Positions 10,265 to 51,061 of a stretch of DNA of 64,000 nt are shown one piece after another. Position 1 is the first letter of the stretch, and each line of letters begins with the position of its first letter. Where the stretch lies: NCBI RefSeq assembly GCF_000336935.1, contig NZ_AOME01000076.1, positions 72,511-136,510 of the forward strand, read 5' to 3'. Both the position numbers and the translations under genes were made by a program. A model generated the notes under the pieces. It was not told the DNA's origin. It saw only the letters and a program-made list of their open reading frames with translations, and did not search any database. The DNA comes from Halococcus salifodinae DSM 8989 (GTDB taxonomy: Archaea; Halobacteriota; Halobacteria; Halobacteriales; Halococcaceae).

Positions 10265-10612
10265 TTATGCGGTGTCCGACTCCTCGGCCTCGTCGAGCGC
10301 CGCGAGATCCCGCTCGTCGTTGTACTCGTTTGGTCCGCCCGCCTCGCCCGAGAGCTCGTCGTAGAGCGACTCGCGAACCTCCTCGGGCGTGTCGTACTCG
10401 TCGTCCAGCCGGTCGAACACGCTGCCCATCGATTCGGTCTCGTTCGGGAGGTCGAGCGGTTGGTCGGCGTACTCGGTGGCGAGTTCCTCGCTTCTGACGG
10501 GGTACTTCCGGTCGCGAACGTCGGTCTCGACTTCGTCGAGAATGTTCTCGACGTGTTCGGCGCGTTCGTGCTGGCGATCGCGAGGGTCCTCGGCTCGATC
10601 GTCGATCGGCAT
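10265..10612 (-). CDS. Haloarchaeal DUF5789-like protein
   Basis: The 115-residue acidic soluble protein contains DVRDRKYPVRSEELATEYAD and GSVFDRLDDEYDTPEEVRESLYDELSG. This pattern resembles the DUF2795/DUF5789 group of small haloarchaeal proteins with a predicted DNA/RNA-binding-like helical fold. The start at 10612 (MPIDDRAEDPRD) was chosen over a 29-codon extension running into a repeat. Function is unknown. Confidence 0.75.
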   Translation of the reverse strand: MPIDDRAEDPRDRQHERAEHVENILDEVETDVRDRKYPVRSEELATEYADQPLDLPNETESMGSVFDRLDDEYDTPEEVRESLYDELSGEAGGPNEYNDERDLAALDEAEESDTA

Positions 10613-10674: not shown

Positions 10675-10928
10675 CGGCGCGCGGAAGCGTGCGGAGCACG
10701 CGACTCGCGCGAGGCTTGCACGAGCGAAATGAGTGCAGGCTCCTCAGAGTGGTTCGGAATACGCTTCGCGTCTTCCGTCATTGCAGGAATCGGTGATTTC
10801 CTGCAGGCAGTCAGATTCCGTCGGAATCTGACGACATCACGGGAGAGCTTTGCTCTCCCGAACGACTTCGCTTTGACGATGGATGAGCGAACGAGTGAAA
10901 CAAGTGGGTAAGTCGGTTGGGGAGGGAG
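10675..10928 (+). repeat. Module A, copy 2 (with hairpin-cluster insertion)
   Basis: It starts with GGCGCGCGGAAGCGTGCGG, GCACGCGACTCGCGCGAGG, and closes with GATGAGCGAACGAGTGAAA and GTCGGTTGGGGAGGGAGTGG. Compared with the other copies, about 150 bp of tandem hairpins separates the two halves. It passes directly into module B copy 1. Confidence 0.75.
10711..10860. repeat. Cluster of five consecutive inverted repeats
   Basis: Five adjacent hairpins can be folded: 10711-10745 (imperfect, GAGGCTTGCAC with GTGCAGGCTC), 10755-10777 (loop TTC, one mismatch), 10782-10805 (TGCAGGAA with TTCCTGCA), 10810-10832 (perfect 10-bp stem GTCAGATTCC, loop GTC), and 10840-10860 (perfect 9-bp stem CGGGAGAGC, loop TTT). 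The stems are unrelated in sequence, which argues for selection on structure or repeated insertion of small palindromes. Confidence 0.7.
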
Positions 10929-11106
10929 TGGCTGTCGCGGTGCGGTGCTAGACGGTAGTGCCAGTGATTGCACCGCGAACGAGGCCGAAGGCCGAGTGAG
11001 CGGGCCGAGGAACCTCCGAGCGGAGCGAGGGGGTGACGACGGCTTTTGGTCCAGATTTTGCCAGCGAGTGAGCGACCGTAGGGAGCGAACGAGCGCAGCA
11101 AAAGGT
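10929..11106 (+). repeat. Dispersed intergenic repeat module B, copy 1
   Basis: Blocks in order are GTCGCGGTGCGGT, CCAGTGATTGCACCGCGAAC, GAGTGAGCGGG, TTTTGGTCCAGATTTTGC, then GAGCGAACGAGC and GCAAAAGGTGG. The terminal TTTTGC and GCAAAA arms can pair around a purine-rich loop. Related copies are at 14656-14807 (reverse) and 51987-52230. Confidence 0.75.
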
Positions 11107-11109
11107 GGA

Positions 11110-11194
11110 AGTCCGCCCTCCCCGATTTGAACTCGTGAAAACGGTCCGACTCGCTTCGCTCGTCGGCTGCGACTTCCCTGCTCAAATCGGGTCG
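11110..11194. repeat. Partial tRNA-Tyr 3'-end copy inside an inverted repeat
   Basis: Bases 11110-11132 repeat exactly the 23 bases at 11236-11258, i.e. the acceptor 3' strand and T-arm of the tRNA-Tyr gene plus the two flanking bases, in the same orientation and 126 bp away. CCCGATTTGA (11121-11130) then pairs with TCAAATCGGG (11185-11194), with an inner CCGAC/GTCGG hairpin between. It lies downstream of the tRNA in the direction of its transcription. Confidence 0.8.
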
Positions 11195-11237
11195 GTTGGA
11201 CGTGCTTCCCGCTCGCCGTTGGCTCGCGGAGAAGTAG

Positions 11238-11311
11238 TCCGCCCTCCCCGATTTGAACGGGGGACAAGCCGATCTACAGTCGGCTGCTCTACCAGTCTGA
11301 GCTAAGGGCGG
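11238..11311 (-). tRNA. tRNA-Tyr (GTA)
   Basis: A 74-nt cloverleaf on the minus strand: acceptor CCGCCCT/AGGGCGG with discriminator A, D-arm GCTC/GAGC, anticodon stem GCCGA/TCGGC with loop CTGTAGA giving anticodon GTA, five-base variable loop TTGTC, and T-arm CCCCG/CGGGG with TTCAAAT. The C1-G72 pair is the expected archaeal tyrosine identity element. CCA is not encoded and no intron is seen. Confidence 0.98.
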
Positions 11312-50107: not shown

Positions 50108-51061
50108 TCAGGGAAGTCGCCCCACGTCCCCGAGCACTGCGGTCGCGGTCGCCCGACCGCCCGCACCGCGCCCGCTCAGGTTCAACTGGCCGGCGTGGCG
50201 GGTTTCGACCTGGACGATGTTCTGGGTCCCAGTCACGGCAAGGGTCCCGTTTTCGGGCACGAGGCGGGGACCGACCCGGACCTCGGGGCCCCCGTCGCCG
50301 TCGACGACCTCGCCGACCAGCCGGACGGTGCGGCCGTCGTCGGTGGCGAGATCGAGCGCGCTCGGGGTGAGATCGGTGATGCCGGTGACGTCGGCGTCCG
50401 CGAGTGTCGTCTCGCCGTTTCCGAGGACGTTCGCGAGGATGGCACACTTGAGTGCGGCGTCGGTGCCCTCGACGTCGAAGGTGGGGTCGGCCTCCGCGAC
50501 GCCGAGGTCCTGGGCCTCCGCGAGCACGTGGTCGTATGCGAGCCCTTCGGCACTCATCCGCGAGAGGATGAAGTTCGCGGTCCCGTTGAGCACGCCCCGG
50601 ACGGCGGTCACGTTCGCCGGGCCGAGATCCGCGATCGTCGAGAGCACCGGGATCGCGCCACCGACGGCGGCCTCGAACAGGACTTCGCCCTCGCTTTCGC
50701 GCTCGGCCGCCCGGAGGTCGGCGTACCGCTCGGCGACCGGGCCCTTGTTCGCGAGCACGGCGTGGGAATCGCGATCGAGCGCGTGGCGCACGTGTGAGAA
50801 TCCAGGTTCGGCGTCGCCGAGGGTCGTCGGCGTGGCCTCGATCAGGGCGTCGTACTCCGCATCGAGCGCGCGATCGATTTCGTCGGTGCCGATGCCTCGG
50901 CCCTCGGCCTTCCGTTCGAGAGCGGTCCCGACATCGATGCCGTCGGGATCGACCGTCGCGCTCGTCGAGTCGGCGAGCGCCGTCACGCGGTGGCCGTACT
51001 CGCCAGCAAGCTCGGCGACCGCGCTCCCGACCGCGCCACAGCCGATGATCGCGAGTCTCAT
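50108..51061 (-). CDS. hom: Homoserine dehydrogenase
   Basis: This enzyme reduces aspartate semialdehyde to homoserine for threonine and methionine synthesis. The 317 residues have the N-terminal NAD(P) motif IIGCGAVGSAVAELAGEYG, NKGPVAERYADLRAAE (catalytic Lys region), AAVGGAIPVLSTI, RGVLNGTANFILSRMSAEGL and AEADPTFDVEGTDAALKCAI (catalytic Asp/Glu region). No aspartokinase domain is present. Its start overlaps the upstream ACT-domain gene by 4 nt. Confidence 0.96.
   Translation of the reverse strand: MRLAIIGCGAVGSAVAELAGEYGHRVTALADSTSATVDPDGIDVGTALERKAEGRGIGTDEIDRALDAEYDALIEATPTTLGDAEPGFSHVRHALDRDSHAVLANKGPVAERYADLRAAERESEGEVLFEAAVGGAIPVLSTIADLGPANVTAVRGVLNGTANFILSRMSAEGLAYDHVLAEAQDLGVAEADPTFDVEGTDAALKCAILANVLGNGETTLADADVTGITDLTPSALDLATDDGRTVRLVGEVVDGDGGPEVRVGPRLVPENGTLAVTGTQNIVQVETRHAGQLNLSGRGAGGRATATAVLGDVGRLP

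Follow-up and report, generated by a model that had tools for sequence, protein, structure and literature searches.

Nested hairpin doublets in an intergenic spacer of Halococcus salifodinae, read as non-autonomous mobile palindromes

The closest described kind to the hairpin block considered here is that of the SMR-A and PATE elements of Haloquadratum. The SMR-A elements of Haloquadratum walsbyi are short (about 110 bp) and transposase-free, carry prominent terminal inverted repeats, show no target duplication and are inserted within palindromes, the ends of IS605-type elements included; they form several families without sequence similarity and the authors call their mobilisation 'enigmatic', while PATEs are said to resemble known IS605-type ends in sequence (PMC3119063). 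The principal element of the present block, termed here a 'type I' doublet, is like SMR-A in being (at about 60 nt) too short for a transposase and in lacking a target duplication, and unlike it in that same length and in its 5-bp imperfect ends, TGGTT and AACGA. Membership of SMR-A is not claimed, because the comparison is by description and the length and ends given for SMR-A are different. With PATEs and the ends of IS200/IS605 elements, type I has in common near-terminal palindromes, the lack of a target duplication and a haloarchaeal host; unlike them, its stems vary freely and its copies are abundant in genomes free of TnpA. A literature search, with most subscription journals outside its reach, returned nothing besides the SMR/PATE paper (PMC3119063) that describes a haloarchaeal element of two hairpins, and no match to the sequence strings of the family. 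The Haloquadratum plasmid PL47 contains no doublet, and has two hairpins of at least 8 bp.

Bacterial REP and BIME repeats are likewise intergenic, built of paired palindromes and present in many copies, but REP stems are conserved in sequence, unlike those of type I, and nesting at a fixed linker is not known from REP elements. Integron attC sites are recognised by their folded shape, with little contribution from stem sequence, and the fixed ends and variable complementary stems of type I are reminiscent of them; an attC site is, however, a single folded arm, and type I consists of two hairpins joined by 6 nt.

The block and its hairpins

The window is the whole stretch of 64,000 nucleotides that was analysed (G000:C76:72511-136510), taken from the 4.2-Mb genome of H. 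salifodinae DSM 8989. On its two sides the block has a DUF5789 gene and a tRNA-Tyr gene, with a CdrL-like zinc-ribbon gene and ftsZ past the latter; it consists of one doublet within another (Table 1). Minus its 56-nt insert, the outer (type I) doublet is 60 nt long; the insert, a 'type II' doublet, is missing from the orthologous element of genome G002, and 91 of 118 type I elements have a plain linker that lacks it. The left flank aligns with an empty hairpin repeat found at other loci (GCAGG-CGTCAGA..TCTGACG-GTGGATGAG). That no second type I element was found in the window fits the statement of the earlier note that other copies of its repeat 'module A' lack the block.

Table 1. Features of the block and its neighbourhood, in window coordinates
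Feature	Position	Strand	Basis or remark
DUF5789 gene	10268-10612	-	
Left flank, one half of the repeat that received type I	10720-10749	.	Alignment with empty hairpin repeat
Type I doublet, TGGTT-HP1-TCA[insert]TCA-HP2-AACGA	10750-10865	+	Joints and hairpins read directly; class-wide family; ends via rejoined flanks
HP1 of type I, imperfect stem, loop TTC	10755-10777	+	
TCA, left half of type I linker TCATCA	10778-10780	+	
Type II doublet, T-HPa-GGCA-HPb-GACA, inserted at TCA^TCA	10781-10836	+	
HPa of type II, 8-bp stem, 8-nt loop	10782-10805	+	
HPb of type II, 10-bp stem, loop GTC	10810-10832	+	
TCA, right half of type I linker	10837-10839	+	
HP2 of type I, 9-bp stem, loop TTT	10840-10860	+	
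Right flank, remaining half of the repeat that received type I (CTTCGCTTTGACGATGGATGAG)	10866-10890	.	Also in G002 and in the unoccupied hairpin of G004
tRNA-Tyr gene	11237-11311	-	

Five hairpins in a row had been described at 10711-10860. Four strong stems, spanning 10755-10860, are indeed present, the 10-bp and 9-bp stems exactly as reported; the fifth (about 10711-10745) shows only imperfect pairing. Three perfect stems of at least 7 bp fall within 150 bp, a number reached by none of 2000 local dinucleotide shuffles. This count alone is not proof, because three-stem spots also occur near 50920 and 11400 of the same window and because three of eight whole-window shuffles contain such a 150-bp spot. 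Folding z-scores for the block are -4.5 (RNA, + strand), -5.6 (DNA) and -4.9 (RNA, - strand), with none of 200 shuffles as good, and the reality of the hairpins is settled by their homologues, both in the home genome and across the class.

A class-wide family with fixed joints and free stems

The home genome has five further copies of the block, at 87-94% identity, and some part of the block is matched in 23 of 41 genomes (the home genome counted). A covariance model placed at least 28 home-genome sites at 48 bits or above, among the 150 of 5036 candidates that were scored. For the class as a whole, a 'joint-only' pattern was used (GTGGTT, TCATCA and AACGAC with 15-29 free bases between them, hairpins not being demanded). 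By this measure 235 of 391 genomes, and 71 of 86 genera of the haloarchaeal class, carry type I, against three hits in total for the reversed-pattern control; nearly all of the matches listed contain two hairpins, and at least two (in G379 and G055) do not. A narrower pattern matched 51 of the 391 genomes with no control hits. In a named collection it matched 54 stretches (47 from Halobacteria and seven from bacteria), a perfect stem of at least 8 bp being present in 39 of the 47 and in none of the seven. Type I elements are about 55-70 bp long and reach about 116 bp when they hold a type II insert, and one of five plasmid records (Halomicrobium urmianum) carries such an element with its type II insert.

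The stems of this family vary in sequence and are matched arm to arm. Among 96 elements, the fraction of paired positions between an element's own arms is 0.94 for HP1 and 0.98 for HP2, and falls to 0.81 and 0.84, respectively, when arms are re-dealt among elements of equal length. In an alignment of 29 sequences, nine of 24 pairs show two-sided change (45 cells), with one cell changed on one side only (a G-U) and seven cells unpaired, and this covariation was matched by none of 500 shuffles; the outer pairs made by the joints are invariant and thus uninformative on the point. The joints are fixed and the hairpin shape is kept, and the sequence of a stem is free provided that its two arms match. 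An 8-nt arm common to both hairpins of one element was found in none of the 96, where 9.65 were expected; this is what would be expected if direct repeats were lost by deletion.

Compensatory change of this strength, a low RNA folding energy and a somewhat frequent convergence of neighbouring genes (17 of the 48 elements with both neighbours called) would suit a structured RNA module, such as a terminator, stabiliser or small RNA lying in 3' ends, in which branched helices tolerate insertions; the earlier note had likewise listed an RNA-processing structure. Unlike a structured RNA family, however, type I sets a single G-U step against 45 two-sided changes, and its stem mismatches are balanced (six G-T and eight A-C) with no strand bias, findings that disfavour RNA processing as well. 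Nor is the orientation relative to genes fixed, divergent pairs making up eight of the 48 (a weak test, as the gene calls were home-made), and an Rfam scan of the region gave no match at the block at E values up to 1. An RNA module is very unlikely.

The loops bear on the same question. GNA triloops are in general stable in DNA. In perfect type I hairpins, GNA or TNC loops account for 55 of 73 and 69 of 81, on either strand and in about equal orientations, which again argues against RNA; among background triloop hairpins with stems of at least 6 bp the corresponding numbers are 24 of 105 and 11 of 63. Those with 9-bp stems are also rich in these loops (4 of 8 and 5 of 7), and some of them may themselves belong to such arrays. 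Extraordinary stability has been described for a DNA hairpin with CGCGAAGCG (PMC10527192). Scarce G-U steps, balanced mismatches and the occurrence of GNA/TNC loops on either strand together fit hairpins of DNA better than hairpins of RNA.

Insertion sites, orthologous loci and nesting

The ends of type I can be placed by removing it. When exactly TGGTT...AACGA was taken out and the flanks were rejoined, an empty site was found for 54 of 94 elements in the loci collected; two other ways of leaving two bases gave 51 and 42, and rejoining with 0, 1, 3 or more bases left gave only 0-10. Apart from the G and C of the site, the rejoined flanks contain no repeated bases, so that there is no target duplication. 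The target reads CTCG^CTNCGCTC, where the G and C at the cut are fixed by construction. In 45% of cases the junction is no more than 4 nt from the centre of a hairpin loop, as compared with 28% of control positions (P = 4e-4), a moderate preference, and flank-to-flank complementarity exceeds the 95th percentile of re-paired flanks for 21 of 92 elements. Unoccupied sites occur in a wide variety of repeats, in tRNA tails and at tnpB ends; most of them are other copies of a repeat, not the corresponding locus of a sister strain.

At the locus itself, related Halococcus genomes differ. Genome G004 has a single plain hairpin with the same right-hand flank, G002 has type I alone and G000 (the home genome) has type I and type II; G001, G003 and G009 have a 108-nt spacer with none of the block, and G005, G006, G007 and G008 are without the doublet. 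The block is best read, with a probability of about 0.68, as one non-coding mobile palindrome nested in another, a type I insertion followed by a type II insertion into its linker; type I is read as a mobile palindrome that is non-autonomous and has other palindromes as its targets. The earlier note was right to list a site of palindrome accumulation, which takes the form of nested doublets, and its suspicion of recombination targets holds to the extent that precise empty sites and nested insertions point to an origin by recombination or transposition. The block is not the decayed end of an IS element or gene, which the note had named as a contrary outcome.

Its more specific suggestion, that of integron attC-like or phage-integrase attachment sites, could appeal to the neighbouring tRNA-Tyr with its duplicated 3' end. 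Unlike an integron, however, the units have no cassette genes between them, none of 41 genomes has an integron integrase above the cut-off (the control genomes also gave 0 of 14, leaving this search with no positive control), and most type I sites are away from tRNA genes; attachment sites of either kind are scarcely credible here.

A further alternative dispenses with transposition, and holds that type I is a mosaic assembled by recombination and gene conversion between repeats at common joints, template switching keeping the arms perfect. Correction of palindromes is expected to give perfect arms, and exchange of half-elements has occurred: the left half of the G002 element is unlike that of G000, and therefore recombination at the linker has also acted. 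Likewise, the elements L271 and L273 are identical with one flank in common and the other unrelated. Against a mosaic stand the precise ends and the unoccupied sites in so many repeats, tRNA tails and tnpB ends, together with joints that are invariant over 71 genera, and we consider it unlikely. Other identical elements, such as L282/L283 and L276/L277, are set in differing sequence on one side or on both, and some share both flanks (in G330), the latter looking like copies of larger modules. Genomes G000 and G002 align at 84-93% identity, and many of the collinear breaks between them fall in such spacers, others being gene-sized inserts or variable coding stretches.

Another proposal would make type I a minimal, PATE-like derivative of IS200/IS605, with end hairpins moved through single-stranded DNA by the Y1 transposase TnpA. 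The paired subterminal palindromes and the lack of a target duplication agree with it, and PATEs with 52-bp core deletions have been described (PMC3119063). Seven of 111 type I elements are at or in IS1341-type tnpB genes (four at 52-117 bp past the end of the gene, and three overlapping or interrupting it), most others being in different palindromic repeats. At these genes, however, type I resembles an invader of the element's end rather than the end itself; its ends (TGGTT/AACGA) are symmetrical, and copies are numerous in genomes without a PF01797 match (G057 with 17, G045 with 10, G011 with 27 and G013 with 18). Type I is present in 14 of the 20 TnpA-negative genomes listed, out of 124. 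Descent from IS200/IS605 in this form is decidedly unlikely. As a required mobiliser, TnpA was rejected on the copy numbers of G057 and G045.

Whereas 91 of the 118 type I elements have the plain linker, 27 have sequence between TCA and TCA. A few of these inserts are degenerate or parse poorly, and the inserts include doublets of at least three kinds: type II (T-HP-..GCA-HP-GACA), type III (CTGA-HP-GAGGTC-HP-ACGA) and type IV (TC-HP-GACTCT-HP-GA).

A possible mechanism and neighbouring observations

In the mechanism that we propose, type I (TGGTT-HP1-TCATCA-HP2-AACGA) would enter a palindromic intergenic repeat at a G^C step without target duplication, and type II (T-HPa-GGCA-HPb-GACA) would then enter the middle of its linker. 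A putative enzyme or repair process would recognise folded single-stranded (or cruciform) DNA together with the joints, and would place the recognised pair into other palindromes, whose loops would serve as exposed targets. The family and its spread, the paired stem changes, the ends and empty sites and the nesting are observed, and both the folded DNA state and the mobilising enzyme are inferred. Extended to the class, this becomes the more tentative and rather doubtful idea of a transposition system in which a two-hairpin mobile unit is defined by DNA shape and three short joints, rather than by sequence, and is placed by a putative structure-reading recombinase. If that were true, doublets would go into the loops of palindromes and into each other's linkers, giving rise to branched trees of hairpins across genomes. 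Compensatory changes in stems are usually taken as a sign of functional RNA, and type I offers a clear case of them at the level of DNA. With ends, target and empty sites that are precisely defined, it opens the movement of transposase-free haloarchaeal repeats to direct tests, and the joint pattern is a simple search for any haloarchaeal genome.

Several further arrays were seen in the same material. In L005, L007 and L011 (the C51 and C70 copies), the loop of HP2 (CGAAACGGC..GCCGTTTCG) carries another hairpin pair, a third level of nesting. Locus L027 (G000:C78, about 39833) has six consecutive hairpins in which GGC and CCGT linkers alternate, an arrangement resembling three doublets of a different kind in tandem. 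In L207 (upstream of tnpA in G000:C56), L040 and L056, GCGTC and GACGC enclose a doublet whose stems resemble those of type II, as though it had gone into the middle of a palindrome. Modules beginning GAAAGCCCTCGG are found behind different genes in L006, L007, L010 and L011, where they seem to start right at the TGA stop codon. The 108-nt insert of Halococcus 5S rRNA was considered as a relative and rejected: the two 5S loci inspected out of nine, L262 and L266, contain no doublet, with one lone joint-hexamer match near the end.

To the right of the block, a repeat module at 10966-11106 ends in GCAGCAAAAGGTGG and includes the unoccupied form of the L002/L003 type I site. The 3' end of tRNA-Tyr (TCCGCCCTCCCCGATTTGAAC, 11238-11258) is repeated in the spacer at 11112-11132, about 125 bp away, and G005 and G007 have further partial copies of that end with small hairpins in between; such repeated tRNA ends are possibly scars of integration at the end of the tRNA gene.
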